Source: Archaeoglobaceae archaeon (GTDB lineage: Archaea; Halobacteriota; Archaeoglobi; Archaeoglobales; Archaeoglobaceae). Taken from it: 64,000 nt of DNA. Both the position numbers and the translations under genes were made by a program. The notes beneath the pieces were generated by a model. The model did not search any database. It saw only the letters and a program-made list of their open reading frames with translations, and was not told where the DNA came from. Positions 4,842 to 31,051 of the stretch are shown here, piece by piece. Numbering within the stretch: the stretch's first letter is position 1; each line of letters begins with the position of its first letter. Where the stretch lies: assembly GCA_026988525.1 (NCBI GenBank), contig JALSLC010000004.1, positions 1-64,000 on the forward strand, read 5' to 3'.

Positions 4842-5600
4842 ATGTCCTTCAAATTTTTTAGATCTCCAAGATTAATTCAGATCTTAAAAGAGTTAAAATC
4901 TGGTCCTAAAAGTAAAAATGAATTAAAAAATTGTTTAAAAGTCTCTACATCTAGAATAACACAGATATTGAGTATGGCTAAATCAATGGGTTTAGTAGAT
5001 GTTTCGCTTGACATGTATATAATAACGTCGAAGGGCTTACTTGTTTTGAATGCTTACGAAATCTTGGAGAACTTTGATAATATTTGCAAGACAAATTCTT
5101 TAAACGATTATTATTTGGATGATATACCTTCATATTTATTAGATAGGATTTATCAACTTAGTAATATTAAAATATTGGATGAATGTGATATATTCTATAC
5201 TAATAAAAATTTTTCCAAAATATTAATTGAATCTTACTCAGTTAAATGCTATACTAATGTTTTCTGCTCAGAATACATTGATTTGTTTTCTAATTTGGTT
5301 GAAAGTGGGAAGGACGTAAATATAATAGTTAGTAAAAATGTTTTAAAAGAGATTCTATTAAATCACAAAAAAGAACTAAAAGATATTTTAAAAAAGTCGA
5401 ATATAAGGTTTTATATATCTAACAAAGATTATAAGATATCTTTACTGATCTTAGACACCAAGCTAATAATATCTTTTTATTTAAAAAATAAAATTTTTAA
5501 TTATAAAAAAATATTTATATGCAATGATGAAGATTGCTTAGATTGGGGGGAAGAGTTGTATTCCTACATTCTAAAAAATTCAAAAGAATATAATTTTTAA
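4842..5600 (+). CDS. FilR1-type winged-helix transcriptional regulator
   Basis: A 252-residue protein with an N-terminal ArsR-like winged helix (residues about 8-70: LIQILKELKSGPKSKNEL, then a recognition helix around STSRITQILSM). It is followed by a domain resembling the FilR1 middle domain (starting at IPSYLLDRIYQLSN), a family common in methanogens and Archaeoglobi. The target genes are unknown. It ends with a four-base convergent overlap on the [FeFe] hydrogenase cytochrome gene, but this tail-to-tail arrangement alone does not make it the regulator of that locus. Confidence 0.75.
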   Translation: MSFKFFRSPRLIQILKELKSGPKSKNELKNCLKVSTSRITQILSMAKSMGLVDVSLDMYIITSKGLLVLNAYEILENFDNICKTNSLNDYYLDDIPSYLLDRIYQLSNIKILDECDIFYTNKNFSKILIESYSVKCYTNVFCSEYIDLFSNLVESGKDVNIIVSKNVLKEILLNHKKELKDILKKSNIRFYISNKDYKISLLILDTKLIISFYLKNKIFNYKKIFICNDEDCLDWGEELYSYILKNSKEYNF

Positions 5601-6289
5601 TCTTCTTTTAATTCTGCTACTTCTCTTTCAAACCATTTTGGATTGTGTTCTTTTGCCCATTCTACTGGTACAGTTCCACTACCCAGCCTAAACATAGACA
5701 CAAAGTCTGGCCAGTTTACTAAGACAAGAGGTATGTGTACGAATGTAACAAATAGCGTTACTATTATAGCTATCCATACATGTAAGTTAAAAAACAGTAG
5801 AACTCCGTTTTTTCCAAGAGCTTCTCTAAAGAAGTACAGAAACCAACCAGTAAATCCAAGAATTGCTAAGCTAAATATCACTGTTAAACCAAGCAATTTT
5901 TGACCGGCGTTGTACTTTGTTTGTGGAGGACAACCGGGTTTTGCAAACCAAAATTTCTCTATGTATTTGTATATTTTCGTTTTACCTAAGAATTTGTATG
6001 GATATCCTCCAAAGTTTTTCCACCATGCTATAGTATCCTTATCCCAGTTCAGTACTTCCTGCATAAAGAGAAATACCCTATCTGGTGTAACTACTATGTA
6101 TGAGACAATTACAAGCGTTAATATTGCAGCAAACAGTATGTGTAACTTCATCAAAAACGCCCTTTCATAGTTATCTACCATTTTAAAGTAAACAAGAATA
6201 CCACTGAGGAATAAACCATACCAACATATCATGTTTACAAAGTGAACTATCCTGCTTGAAAGAGGATGTCTTAAAACTACTTCTTTCAA
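5597..6289 (-). CDS. Cytochrome b subunit of the [FeFe] hydrogenase
   Basis: A 230-residue integral membrane protein of the formate dehydrogenase gamma / hydrogenase cytochrome b type, with four predicted transmembrane helices. Histidines suited to ligate two b hemes occur in RIVHFVNM, MKLHILFA, NLHVWIA and TFVHIPLV. It should take electrons from HydAB on the outer face of the membrane and pass them to the quinone-like pool. The TTG start at 6289 follows a GGGGGTGTT Shine-Dalgarno. It lies 21 bases after hydB and is the last gene of the hydA-hydB-cytochrome b operon. The assignment to this hydrogenase rests on operon context. Confidence 0.85.
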   Translation of the reverse strand: MKEVVLRHPLSSRIVHFVNMICWYGLFLSGILVYFKMVDNYERAFLMKLHILFAAILTLVIVSYIVVTPDRVFLFMQEVLNWDKDTIAWWKNFGGYPYKFLGKTKIYKYIEKFWFAKPGCPPQTKYNAGQKLLGLTVIFSLAILGFTGWFLYFFREALGKNGVLLFFNLHVWIAIIVTLFVTFVHIPLVLVNWPDFVSMFRLGSGTVPVEWAKEHNPKWFEREVAELKED

Positions 6290-6310
6290 CTTAACACCCC
6301 CTAATTGCTT

Positions 6311-6634
6311 TCAAAAACCACCAGTCCTCTTAAAATAGGTTGTATGTAGTAGCTCCTCACTAACCTCTCCAAATGGTTGAATAGCAAATTCATCGTAAAA
6401 TCTTTTTATCATTGGATTCTGATGAGATGCAGCGAGTTTGTACACTTTTCTAACTCTCTCATCATCTTTGTACTGTCCTTTTTGTCTCATTTTTATATAC
6501 TTGTTTCTATGGGCAAATAAATCTGTAATTTTATAGGCTCCAACTGCTATTGCTGCTATAGATATACCAAATATTTTTAAAAGAGCCCTTCTACTTAACC
6601 TAACACTTGCTGGTTTTTCCACAAACCACTTCAT
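6311..6634 (-). CDS. hydB: [FeFe] hydrogenase small subunit with Tat signal
   Basis: About 107 residues. A twin-arginine signal (SRRALLK, Arg15-Arg16) is followed by a hydrophobic stretch. The mature part matches the iron-hydrogenase small subunit family: helical segments with VRKVYKLAASHQNPMIK, then PFGEVSEELLHTTYF, close to the PLGHKSHDLLHTHW region of Desulfovibrio HydB. The small subunit carries the export signal for the pair and wraps around HydA. A strong GAGGTGAT site places the start at ATG 6634; a GTG at 6643 is in frame but overlaps the site. Its stop is 21 bases from the cytochrome b start. Confidence 0.9.
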   Translation of the reverse strand: MKWFVEKPASVRLSRRALLKIFGISIAAIAVGAYKITDLFAHRNKYIKMRQKGQYKDDERVRKVYKLAASHQNPMIKRFYDEFAIQPFGEVSEELLHTTYFKRTGGF

Positions 6635-6644
6635 AACTATCACC

Positions 6645-8048
6645 TCACAGAGGTAGAGGTAAGACAGGATCTATCCAAGATGTCCCCATAGGTTCAACAG
6701 GCTGACCACCACCATTTAAGCAACCACCTGGGCAAGTCATAACTTCTATAAAGTGGTATTTACTCGTTCCCGCGAGAACTTCTTCTAAAACATCTTTTAT
6801 GTGTAAACCTCTATAACCAATTCCGTTAACGACGCAAACATTCAGAGTTACTTCGTCTAATCCAATTTCTTTTTTCAATTCTGATTTGAGTGGTATTGTT
6901 ATCTTAGCCTCAACTCTTGGGTGTGTGTATCCTCTAACTTTGACAAAGTTCCATTTTTCACTCAAAGCTGGAGGTTCTTGACCAGATAGGACGCTCCAAG
7001 CAAACCTAAGAGCAGCTTCCATAACTCCACCGCTTGTACCAAAAATAGTTCCTCCACCACTATACCATTCGAAATTTTCGGGTTTCTCGTTTTCTGAAAA
7101 TTCAATAGGATTTATTCCTTTTCTTCTGAAAAGTTCTGCGAGATCTCTTGTTGTTAATACAGCATCAACATCTTTAAACTTGGTAGTAACCAATCCTTTC
7201 TCTTTTAGCCATCTCCAGGCACTATCAAATTCCGGTCTTGAGGCTTCGTATATTTTTGCAGTACACGGCATAATTCCTACTGTATATATTCTCTCTGGAT
7301 TTACCTTCCAAACTTTTAGTGCCCCGTACGTTTTTGCTGTTGGTCCTGCCATTTGTTGTGGGGATTTACAGCTTGATAAATGTGGTAAAATTTCTGGGTA
7401 ATACACTTCTGCATATCTAACCCACGCAGGACAGCAAGATGTAAATTGAGGTAACGGTTTGTTTTCAAATTCTTTTAAGTCAAGTTTTACTTTTTTAACC
7501 CAGCTGATTGGTCTAATATCTTTTATTTCGAATTCAATTTCTTTCAACCCCAACTCCCAGTATGCAATTCTACCTATGAGTTCAGTCCCCTCTTCCATTA
7601 TAGTTTGGTCAGCTGCAAAGTTGTTTTCAAATATATGAAATCCTGCCTTTTTTAAAGCTAAGTGCAATCTTGAAACTGTCAAAGTTCCCGGTGGCTTTCC
7701 AAATTCTTCTGCTAACGCAACTCTTACTGCTGGAGCTACTATTGCCACAACAAAAGAGTTTTTGTCTTCTAATTTTTTCATTACTTCATCGAGAAAACTC
7801 ATTTGTTCTATTGCTCCAAAAGGACAATTTATTAAGCATTGACCGCAGTTTATACATCTATCGTAGTCTATTTTGTGTCTTGTTCCTATTTCCCCCATCA
7901 TTGCCCCAGTGGGACACTGAGTTCTGCAAGTGTCACATCCTACGCATCTATCGGATACTCTTACAATTCCTGCTAATTCTCCTTTTCTATAAGTTTTCAG
8001 CTTTTCATTTACTGGGGAAGGTGGAAAAGTTCTAATCTTTTCTACCAA
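6645..8048 (-). CDS. hydA: [FeFe] hydrogenase catalytic subunit (group A, dimeric periplasmic type)
   Basis: A 467-residue protein. Two [4Fe-4S] ferredoxin motifs come first (Cys35/38/41/45 and Cys65/68/71/75). The H-cluster domain carries all three signatures: L1 TSCCPAW (203-209), L2 MPCTAK (260-265, then Glu268) and L3 EVMTCPGGCLNGGGQP (435-450). The extra SSCKSPQQM and IMEEGTE motifs are also intact, so the enzyme looks functional. It lacks its own signal peptide, as in Desulfovibrio, where HydB carries the Tat signal. The likely role is H2 oxidation on the outside of the membrane. The start is TTG at 8048 after GGGGGTGAGG. [FeFe] hydrogenases are rare in archaea. The HydE, HydF and HydG maturases needed for the H cluster are not in this window. 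Confidence 0.95.
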   Translation of the reverse strand: MVEKIRTFPPSPVNEKLKTYRKGELAGIVRVSDRCVGCDTCRTQCPTGAMMGEIGTRHKIDYDRCINCGQCLINCPFGAIEQMSFLDEVMKKLEDKNSFVVAIVAPAVRVALAEEFGKPPGTLTVSRLHLALKKAGFHIFENNFAADQTIMEEGTELIGRIAYWELGLKEIEFEIKDIRPISWVKKVKLDLKEFENKPLPQFTSCCPAWVRYAEVYYPEILPHLSSCKSPQQMAGPTAKTYGALKVWKVNPERIYTVGIMPCTAKIYEASRPEFDSAWRWLKEKGLVTTKFKDVDAVLTTRDLAELFRRKGINPIEFSENEKPENFEWYSGGGTIFGTSGGVMEAALRFAWSVLSGQEPPALSEKWNFVKVRGYTHPRVEAKITIPLKSELKKEIGLDEVTLNVCVVNGIGYRGLHIKDVLEEVLAGTSKYHFIEVMTCPGGCLNGGGQPVEPMGTSWIDPVLPLPL

Positions 8049-27603: not shown

Positions 27604-28659
27604 GTGAAGTTTAGTAGAAGAGGTTTTTTGAAAACGGTTGCGGCATTAGGTGCGGCAACATTTCTTGACACTTATGGCGTTGAACTTGCTGAAGCACTGA
27701 ATGAGGTTAAAGACTACTGGCATATATGTTGGTTAAACGGTGCAGCTTGCACCGGATGCACGATATCCTTTGCACAATCTGTAAATCCGGGATTAATTGA
27801 AATATTTACGAGCATACTTGTAGGCAATTCTGGATTACCAATAGTTCTACCAGACTACATGGAAACACTTCAGCCAGCATCTGGTACTTTGGCTGAAGAC
27901 TTGATAAACAGATGGAAAAATGGAAGTAAGGGTAGGAGAATACTCATTGTTGAAGGAGCAATTCCAAAGAAAGGCTTCTGTCAAATACATGGTGTGGACT
28001 TTTATGAGCGTTTAAAAGATATAGCTCCTTACGCAGACCATATAATTGCCTTTGGTGCATGTGCGTGTTTTGGAGGAGTACCATCTGCAAAACCAAATCC
28101 AACTGGAGTTAGAGGAGTTCAAGAATTCTTCAAAGAAGTTGGTATAAACAAGCCTGTGATAAACATACCTTGCTGTCCTGGCAATCCAGATCACCTTGTA
28201 ATTACTCTTGCAGCAGTTATGCTTGGAGAAAAAATAGAATTAGACAAATACAACAGACCTAAGGTCTTCTTTGGAAAGTTGATGCACGATGAACTTTGTC
28301 CGTACAGACCTTACTATGATAGAGGTATATTCGCTGAGAAACCGGGAGATGAAGGATGCCGTTATAAGATTGGTTGTAAAGGACCAATGACGCACACAGA
28401 TTGCGCTTTAAGGAAATGGAACGGTCACGTTAGTTACTGTGTTGAAGTTGGAGCTCCTTGCATAGGCTGTGCTGAACCGGGATTTCCAGACAACTTTGAA
28501 CCATTCTACAAACCGGTTGCAGAACTTCCAGCAGTTCTTGGTTTTGGTCCTGAAAAGATAGGTGAAGGTATATTGGCAGCAACTGCCGCTGGAATAGCAA
28601 TTCACGCTGTAAGGCATGTTGCTAGCAGTAAAGGTGAAAAGAAAGAGAAAAAAGAGTGA
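27604..28659 (+). CDS. [NiFe] hydrogenase small subunit with Tat signal (Vht-like)
   Basis: A 351-residue small subunit with a twin-arginine signal SRRGFLK at the N-terminus followed by a hydrophobic stretch. Fe-S ligands are seen in the proximal-cluster motif GAACTGCT, GACACFGG, IPCCPGNP and, for the distal clusters, DELCPYRPYYD, GCRYKIGCKG and GAPCIGCAEPGFPD. It would transfer electrons from the large subunit to the cytochrome b. The GTG start follows GGGGTGAT. The C-terminus ends in a short hydrophobic helix and a Lys/Glu tail, which could help membrane attachment. It resembles the methanophenazine-reducing and Archaeoglobus group 1 enzymes. Confidence 0.95.
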   Translation: MKFSRRGFLKTVAALGAATFLDTYGVELAEALNEVKDYWHICWLNGAACTGCTISFAQSVNPGLIEIFTSILVGNSGLPIVLPDYMETLQPASGTLAEDLINRWKNGSKGRRILIVEGAIPKKGFCQIHGVDFYERLKDIAPYADHIIAFGACACFGGVPSAKPNPTGVRGVQEFFKEVGINKPVINIPCCPGNPDHLVITLAAVMLGEKIELDKYNRPKVFFGKLMHDELCPYRPYYDRGIFAEKPGDEGCRYKIGCKGPMTHTDCALRKWNGHVSYCVEVGAPCIGCAEPGFPDNFEPFYKPVAELPAVLGFGPEKIGEGILAATAAGIAIHAVRHVASSKGEKKEKKE

Positions 28660-28669
28660 GGTGATGTAG

Positions 28670-30370
28670 GTGACTACTGTAGTTGTGGATCCTATAACAA
28701 GAATTGAAGGACACCTTAGAGTCGAAATGGATTTAAAAGAAGTTAAAACTTCTAAGGGGTCATTTAGTTTTGTTGAAACTGCGAGATGTTGTGGTGAATT
28801 GTTTAGAGGATTTGAAATCTTCCTTAAAGGAAGAGATCCAAGAGATGCTATATTTCTAACTCAGCGTATATGTGGTGTTTGTCCAGCACCACATGGTGAG
28901 GCTTCATGTGAGGCTGTGGAGAGAGCGTATGGTATAACTCCGCCCCCAGTGTCTGTACTCTCAAGGAATATAATGCATGGTGCGTACTACATTTACGATC
29001 ATATAATTCACACTTATGTATTAATGGGTCCTGAGCTTGGTATAGCCTGTAAATACCCTCCAATGGTTCCACCAGCTCTTGGAAAGGAGGGCATAGCTAA
29101 ATTGGGTTTGGGTAGTAGCTATGCTAAAGCTGTAGAAATTCAAAGACTTGCAAATCAAATAGTGGCACTTTGGGGAGGTAAATTCCCGCACTTTGCAAGC
29201 CAGTATCCGGGAGGTCTTACAGCCCATCCCACGCCAGCAAGAGTTTCAGATACTTTTGCAAGAATGGTAAAAATTTGGGAATTCGTAGCAATAGATATGA
29301 TAAGGGATATAAACGCAATAATTGATGCAAGTGATAAACTTGGTGAAAAAGTCAGCTCTATTCTTGGAGTTGACTTTAAGGGTTTAGAAAGCTTAGGAGT
29401 CTCTACAGGCAACTTTCTGAGTTACGGAGTCTTTCCGGATTATGAAGATTATGACGATTGGTTAGATCCTTCAAAAAGAAAGAAAGCACTATTTAGAAGT
29501 GGAGCATGGAGTAATGGCTCATTTAAAACATTTGATGAAAGTAAAGTTAGAGAATACATAAAATATTCATGGTATAGTGGTGAAAGTGGTTTAACACCCT
29601 TCAAGGAAACAACAATACCTGATAGAAACAAGAGCGAAGCATACTCTTGGATAAAAGCTCCAAGATATGACGGAAAAGTTTATGAGGTAGGTCCTCTTGC
29701 AAGAATGGTTAATACTTTTGGTACTAAATGGAGGATACAGAGAGTACACCCGGTAACTGGAGAAGATTACGGAGATTTTGTATATGAAATGAGAAATCCA
29801 AATGGATCCGTCTTAGATAGGATTGTTGCAAGAGTGGCTTGTACGTTAATAATAGCAAACAAGATGTTTGAATGGATTGAAGCAATAAAGGGCATGATGA
29901 ATGAAAAGATAATTAATTTCAAGAGCTATCCGAGCAATGGCGAAGGGTATGGTCTTTGGGATGCACCCAGAGGAGCTCTTGGTCACTGGTTAATAGTTAA
30001 GAATGGTGTTATAGACCATTATCAGTGCGTTGTTCCATCAACTTGGAACTTCAGTCCAAGAGATGACAGCGGAAAGCCCGGTGCGGTTGAACAATCCTTA
30101 GTAAACACATGGCTACCGAAGAATATGAGTATCAAGGACTTATGTAATGCTCTATATCCAGAAAAAGACGTAAACTTAGCACCTTTGGGCATTAATGCAA
30201 CTGTTAGCTGGGGTGATGCATTAGCTTCAGCGTTAAAACAGTTGGGCTTAGAAAAACTTAACTTAGAACCGGCAAATGGTGCTGAATACAATACAACTCT
30301 TGCACTTATGGCTGTTAGAAGCTTTGACCCGTGCATAGCTTGTGCAGTTCACGTTGGTAGAGTTAAGTAA
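28670..30370 (+). CDS. [NiFe] hydrogenase large subunit (Vht-like)
   Basis: A 566-residue catalytic subunit. The L1 motif RICGVCP (Cys68, Cys71) and the L2 motif DPCIACAVH (Cys555, Cys558) supply the four Ni-Fe ligands. The N-terminus DPITRIEGHLRVEM is typical. After His561 only five residues (VGRVK) remain, a much shorter tail than the usual C-terminal extension removed by the maturation endopeptidase. It is exported with the Tat-bearing small subunit. The GTG start lies ten bases after the small-subunit stop, with GAGGTGAT overlapping the junction. No maturation protease gene lies next to the operon. Confidence 0.96.
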   Translation: MTTVVVDPITRIEGHLRVEMDLKEVKTSKGSFSFVETARCCGELFRGFEIFLKGRDPRDAIFLTQRICGVCPAPHGEASCEAVERAYGITPPPVSVLSRNIMHGAYYIYDHIIHTYVLMGPELGIACKYPPMVPPALGKEGIAKLGLGSSYAKAVEIQRLANQIVALWGGKFPHFASQYPGGLTAHPTPARVSDTFARMVKIWEFVAIDMIRDINAIIDASDKLGEKVSSILGVDFKGLESLGVSTGNFLSYGVFPDYEDYDDWLDPSKRKKALFRSGAWSNGSFKTFDESKVREYIKYSWYSGESGLTPFKETTIPDRNKSEAYSWIKAPRYDGKVYEVGPLARMVNTFGTKWRIQRVHPVTGEDYGDFVYEMRNPNGSVLDRIVARVACTLIIANKMFEWIEAIKGMMNEKIINFKSYPSNGEGYGLWDAPRGALGHWLIVKNGVIDHYQCVVPSTWNFSPRDDSGKPGAVEQSLVNTWLPKNMSIKDLCNALYPEKDVNLAPLGINATVSWGDALASALKQLGLEKLNLEPANGAEYNTTLALMAVRSFDPCIACAVHVGRVK

Positions 30371-30388
30371 AAATTGGAGGGATTTACA

Positions 30389-31051
30389 ATGGCTGAGTAC
30401 GTTGAAGTTTATAGACATTCTCTTTTTTATAGAATATGTCACTGGAGCATAGTTATAACAGGTTTTATACTGGCTTTTACAGGAATGCAAATGGGCGGTT
30501 TGTATGGTATTAGAATATTGCCTAAAGGCGGAGTTTTGGCAGTACACTTGGCAGTGGGAATGATATTTGGAGGGCTATGGTTTTTAATGTTCTACTATAT
30601 AGTGGTCAAAGAATGGAAATGGTTTGGCTTGCAGAGAATACCTTACGCAATAAAGTTCTTAATAGCTGAATCCCTTGCTTGGCTTGGCATAGGCCCCCAT
30701 ATCGAGGATCCAAGAGGTTACGATCCAAAAAAGGGTGAGTACGTAGAAAAGATAATTCCAACTGAAGTTATGGTTTGGTGGATATACTTCATATTGGCCA
30801 TGCTTATGGGTATAACTGGACTTGCAATGTACTTTAGATCACAATTTGCACCACTCTACAGTATAGCTGGGGCTATTGGCCAATTCTTTGGAACGAGTAA
30901 TGGTTATGCAGTTATAAGGGCTGTGCATAGATTGGGAATGTACTTATTTGCAATGGTTATGTTCATGCACGTTTATGCAGTAATAATCTTTGAAGTTCTC
31001 GGTTCAATGATTACTGGTAAAAGGTTGGAAAAGGTTAAAACAAAGAGCTAA
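30389..31051 (+). CDS. Cytochrome b subunit of the [NiFe] hydrogenase (VhtC-like)
   Basis: A 220-residue membrane protein of the HyaC/VhtC family with four or five helices. Candidate heme-ligand histidines are in [26 protein letters not shown] and MFMHVYAVI. It passes electrons from the periplasmic-side hydrogenase to the membrane pool. ATG 30389 follows GGAGGGA; the open frame extends to 30374 but that start lies over the Shine-Dalgarno. It is the third gene of the operon and overlaps convergent pcm by four bases. Confidence 0.93.

Follow-up and report, generated by a model that had tools for sequence, protein, structure and literature searches.

A predicted exported [FeFe] hydrogenase with its own cytochrome b in Archaeoglobaceae: a bacterial module in an archaeal host

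The periplasmic HydAB hydrogenase of Desulfovibrio uses soluble cytochrome c3 and, to our knowledge, its hydAB operon lacks a cytochrome b gene. In Campylobacterota and Shewanella the gene order is hydA-hydB-cytB-hydG-hydE-hydF, which is matched by the published hyd clusters of S. cavolei, C. rectus and S. oneidensis, the cluster of Sulfurospirillum cavolei being described as hydA-hydB-membrane component-hydG-(aspA)-hydE-hydF (PMC4794192). The Vht/Vho [NiFe] hydrogenase of Archaeoglobus is exported, is Tat-signalled and has its own cytochrome b, and the periplasmic Vht of A. fulgidus has been proposed to couple to menaquinone (PMC3949148). [FeFe] hydrogenases were formerly thought to be absent from archaea (PMC8924675), but archaeal representatives have been reported (Greening et al. 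2024, Cell 187:3357, as cited in PMC11406978), and a survey of Tengchong names archaeal group A enzymes only in Micrarchaeia and Nanoarchaeia (PMC11094006). A literature search, whose scope did not extend to the enzyme list of Greening et al. 2024, returned no earlier report of an exported HydAB-cytochrome b system in Archaeoglobi.

Here we consider a stretch of 64,000 nucleotides (the window) from an Archaeoglobaceae archaeon, whose minus strand carries between positions 8048 and 5597 an operon in the order hydA, hydB, cytochrome b. The first two genes are separated by 1 base and the last two by 21 bases, the latter spacing being just that of the original prediction. Chance is excluded as an explanation for this operon by homology over the full length of the proteins, by its occurrence in five genomes and by conserved synteny. 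The gene hydA (6645..8048, minus strand) encodes the catalytic large subunit, which on the combined evidence of motifs, Pfam profile and PDB comparison is assigned to the group-A [FeFe] hydrogenases with two F-type [4Fe-4S] clusters. Its coding sequence ends at 6645 and likely starts with the TTG at 8048, downstream of GGGGGTGAGG, and an ATG is found at the equivalent codon of the syntenic copy on contig L003. The three H-cluster motifs (TSCCPAW, MPCTAK and EVMTCPGGC) and the two 4Fe-4S motifs (CVGCDTCRTQCP and CINCGQCLINCP) that had been claimed for the protein were all recovered at the correct coordinates. Every H-cluster and F-cluster residue is furthermore invariant among 14 homologues, including C204, C205, C261, C438 and C442, which make up the four cubane cysteines and the proton-relay cysteine. 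The Pfam profile Fe_hyd_lg_C (PF02906) matches far over its cut-off (244.6 bits, E=1.5e-72), and although the score of 389.7 bits against NCBIfam TIGR02512 falls 16 bits short of the cut-off of 405.95, this is still the top match of the library and the shortfall is probably due to inserts. In comparisons with the PDB by both sequence and fold, Desulfovibrio HydA structures such as 1hfe_L are the top matches, the HydA model (pLDDT 74) having been used for its overall fold alone.

The third gene of the operon (5597..6289, minus strand) encodes a cytochrome b matching PF01292 (55.7 bits, E=7.1e-15), which is the predicted membrane electron acceptor. Four histidines (His16, His50, His170 and His185) are invariant in 14 homologues, and the best fold match of the structural model (pLDDT 87.8) is FdnI (1kqf_C, TM 0.70/0.74), so that the protein is predicted to be a diheme cytochrome of the FdnI/HyaC family with these four histidines as heme ligands. 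It was also considered as a formate dehydrogenase gamma subunit, but with 51.5 bits against a TIGR01583 cut-off of 115.85 this was rejected, and it is to be seen as a relative only. Convergent with the operon lies a gene on the plus strand (4842..5600) for a transcriptional regulator with a FilR1 middle domain (PF08350, 90.5 bits), which is fast-evolving and yet found in the same place in the related species (L003:9165-9923). It is possible that this gene regulates the hyd operon.

The original prediction saw in this layout the periplasmic Desulfovibrio enzyme with a dedicated acceptor added. That description has to be corrected, and the idea of a Desulfovibrio enzyme plus an extra gene is rejected by the HydA phylogeny as well as by the Campylobacterota and Shewanella clusters, in which hydA-hydB-cytochrome b, with or without the following hydG-hydE-hydF, is the standard arrangement. 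A tree of 49 HydA sequences (support given as pairs of values) places the five archaeal proteins in a single clade (100/99), which lies inside a Campylobacterota-containing clade (100/99), followed by Shewanella and then, weakly, by Desulfovibrio; Syntrophomonas and the fused enzymes branch outside these clades. The prediction's suggestion that HydA be placed among bacterial and archaeal sequences has thus given a position nested in bacterial HydAB and closest to Campylobacterota. The nearest single bacterium, G625, is reached via the Campylobacterota group and has a HydA that is 63% identical, with weak support for the sister position (86/59); this is also the best bacterial HydA match seen, and no close match to any single bacterial contig was found. 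The cytochrome b tree gives the same neighbours as HydA (SH-aLRT 92). Because the archaeal clade is nested within bacterial HydAB, the direction of transfer was in all likelihood from bacteria to archaea, and judging from the trees the gene set is a horizontal acquisition from bacteria whose HydAB belongs to the Campylobacterota-type lineage. The trees of HydG, HydE and HydF are long-branched and do not settle donor or direction, and a search of plasmids found more distant group-A enzymes only, with 38% identity at best. The simplest account is that one cluster was transferred from a bacterium and that the maturase genes were scattered later. As a separate observation, genes for a NifH-like ATPase and for two proteins resembling NifDK lie next to the hyd cluster of G625, beyond its hydE, its hydF and a gene similar to aspartase (L181:2082-8866).

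The trio is thus a module already known from bacteria, here met in another domain of life. The Campylobacterota HydAB-cytochrome b systems resemble it in subunits and gene order, with HydAs that are 56-63% identical, and have the same set of maturases, which in the relative G045 are likewise linked. They differ from it in that the host and membrane are here archaeal, the maturase genes of the window genome are scattered and sequence-distant, and an exported [NiFe] enzyme coexists; the aspA gene of S. cavolei was furthermore not noticed in the archaeal clusters inspected. The Shewanella operon has the same gene set, but its HydA shows about 50-57% identity across the region that could be matched and falls outside the clade of archaeal and Campylobacterota proteins. 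Desulfovibrio HydAB (1hfe) shares the dimer with a separate HydB, the two F clusters and the Tat signal on the small subunit, and is the best fold match, but is only about 40% identical to the archaeal enzyme. Archaeoglobus Vht/Vho is comparable in its export, its own cytochrome b and its proposed acceptor, whereas its catalytic protein and cofactor are unrelated to those of HydA. The archaeal enzymes described by Greening and colleagues, where the stress is reportedly on minimal and [FeFe]/[NiFe] hybrid enzymes, have in common with the present one that a [FeFe] hydrogenase is found in an archaeon.

Considering its gene content, we regard it as probable that the trio forms an extracytoplasmic, membrane-anchored H2:menaquinone oxidoreductase, horizontally acquired from bacteria, which feeds sulfate respiration. 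A search of the genome for the maturases found all three, HydE (C7), HydF (C10) and HydG (C6), over their curated cut-offs, and HydG and HydF are over the cut-offs also in the genome of the L003 species. Of nine genomes tested, the five with HydA, and no others, have a HydE that passes its cut-off. In the window genome the maturase genes and that of a second [FeFe] hydrogenase, HydA2, are located on contigs other than that of the operon, while G045 has hydF-hydG-cytB-hydB-hydA in one cluster with hydE adjoining and divergent, and in G042 hydE alone of the maturase genes is linked to hydA-hydB-cytB. DsrA and DsrB are likewise present in the window genome together with QmoC (403 bits against a cut-off of 300), which indicate a chain for the respiration of sulfate that includes a quinone-linked complex in the membrane. 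We infer that the three gene products form a complex and that a quinone is the acceptor. The exported HydA would then split H2 outside, and electrons would pass from the H-cluster via the two [4Fe-4S] clusters and the cytochrome's two b hemes to the quinone. Quinone reduction would take place at the cytoplasmic face of the membrane, with the result that protons are set free on the outside and consumed on the inside, and the quinol would be used in sulfate respiration (Qmo/Apr, Dsr).

Uptake appears the likelier direction, the main rival being that the system runs in reverse, with menaquinol passing electrons to the external HydAB and H2 being released, either as a redox valve or in syntrophic growth. 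A homologous trio does occur in Syntrophomonas, syntrophs obliged to make H2, and [FeFe] hydrogenases work in both directions, frequently with a bias towards making H2, but the HydA clade is nearer to Campylobacterota than to Syntrophomonas, the genome holds genes for sulfate respiration, and producing H2 from menaquinol is strongly endergonic and calls for reverse electron transport. H2 release as the main role therefore seems unlikely to us, if well worth keeping in mind, and uptake is preferred.

HydA itself carries no signal peptide. The small subunit hydB (6311..6643, minus strand, starting with either the GTG at 6643 or the ATG at 6634) is a separate gene whose product matches Fe_hyd_SSU (PF02256; 58.9 bits, E=5.1e-16) and begins with a twin-arginine signal, SRRALLK followed by a hydrophobic stretch. 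The SRRALLK motif is present as first described, and its RR pair is kept in all five archaeal and all sampled bacterial HydBs. HydB furthermore aligns to 1hfe_S from the twin arginine onward, in the signal as well as the mature part. The signal was judged by motif and conservation rather than by a dedicated signal predictor, and the Pfam TAT_signal profile gave no match to HydB. The hydrophobic stretch is without a clear AxA cleavage site, and the signal may consequently stay in place as a membrane anchor. A search by profile for tatC, which the original prediction had pointed to along with the maturases, found two copies in the window genome. In the cytoplasm HydA would be folded and would receive its H-cluster from HydE, HydF and HydG, after which Tat would carry it out as a passenger of HydB, the one twin-arginine signal serving both subunits; on the strength of this signal the two should be exported together.

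The missing Pfam match, and the departure from SRRxFLK in three copies (SRRALLK in the window, KRRTLLK and TRRGLLK), would agree with a non-functional Tat signal and a cytoplasmic, ferredoxin-type HydA and HydB. This is nevertheless quite improbable, since the RR pair is invariant in the archaeal and bacterial proteins, two relatives (G042 and G037) have a perfect SRRTFLK, TatC is present, the adjacent dedicated cytochrome b makes most sense with an exported enzyme, and the cytoplasmic role is already filled by the fused, signal-less HydA2. HydA2 (L001:754-2682; L139:7715-9643, G000 contig C6), whose gene adjoins hydG, has a fused small-subunit domain, an N-terminal domain without the usual 2Fe-2S cysteines and no signal, and is monophyletic within the genus. 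Its motif TSCSPGW has a serine in place of the expected cubane cysteine, but this cannot be regarded as unique to HydA2, given that TSCSP is found in 39 of 109 sampled motif-bearing ORFs, many of them bacterial group-A enzymes.

The locus is found in a genome of 1.43 Mb in 39 contigs, estimated as 99.8% complete. The closest match outside it is a contig (L003) of a metagenome-assembled genome of another species, likewise named 'Archaeoglobaceae archaeon', with a HydA that is 93% identical. The two share their flanks on both sides, with actin-like, TlyA-like and phosphodiesterase genes on one side and those of the FilR1-domain regulator, DNA gyrase B, a GHMP kinase and FtsJ on the other, the names having been assigned by sequence resemblance. 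The concern that the contig might be chimeric is answered by these same archaeal neighbours in an independent assembly, which support a joined chromosome. The GC3 of hydA, hydB and cytB (0.26, 0.25 and 0.30) is within that of the flanking archaeal genes (0.23-0.27, with one at 0.35). A bacterial fragment misjoined to an archaeal contig in assembly or binning might be suspected from the bacterial type of HydA and its patchiness within the order, but is so improbable in view of the flanks shared with a different species, the GC3 and the single clade of five archaeal HydAs that it can be dismissed. The distribution is indeed patchy, hydA being found in five of 57 Archaeoglobales species examined (G000, G043, G045, G042 and G037). 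The complete trio of hydA, hydB and cytochrome b occurs in the window genome, in the L003 species and in three more Archaeoglobaceae genomes. Across the phylum, an [FeFe] large subunit of any kind is present in only eight of 394 genomes.

The [FeFe] enzyme is predicted not to be the sole route for H2 in this organism, because a Vht-like exported [NiFe] hydrogenase, the usual archaeal counterpart, is encoded about 20 kb away (27604..31051, plus strand) as a Tat-signalled small subunit, a large subunit and its own cytochrome b. The window genome thus encodes two unrelated hydrogenases predicted to be exported, each paired with a cytochrome b of its own, and the [NiFe] enzyme could serve the same function as HydAB-cytochrome b. 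In G042, which belongs to the same genus and is 99% complete, a search for [NiFe] large subunits found none, whereas HydAB-cytochrome b, HydE, HydG, HydF and HydA2 are all present (loci L136 and L141). We would tentatively raise the possibility that [FeFe] enzymes have begun replacing [NiFe] enzymes in the genus and have replaced them in at least one species, leaving an all-[FeFe] H2 metabolism with HydA2 inside and HydAB-cytochrome b outside. This might even extend to hydrogen cycling, in which H2 made inside by HydA2 would be reoxidised outside by HydAB. Should the main reading of the window trio hold, an archaeon would have an exported, cytochrome-linked [FeFe] hydrogenase, and a bacterial module would be seen to undergo maturation, Tat export and coupling to the membrane of an archaeon. 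The genus would furthermore offer a natural comparison between species with both an exported [NiFe] and an exported [FeFe] enzyme and one that is [FeFe]-only, in which displacement of one hydrogenase class by another becomes directly testable, as well as candidates for heat-stable periplasmic [FeFe] enzymes.

It should also be mentioned that in G037 (genus g12) hydA is frameshifted and the cytochrome b gene is interrupted by an in-frame stop (L137:5100-7764), so that the hyd system of this genome is either decaying or badly assembled. The same genome has a second, very divergent HydF-like GTPase encoded directly behind hydE (L145:5515-6822), in addition to a normal HydF in L142.
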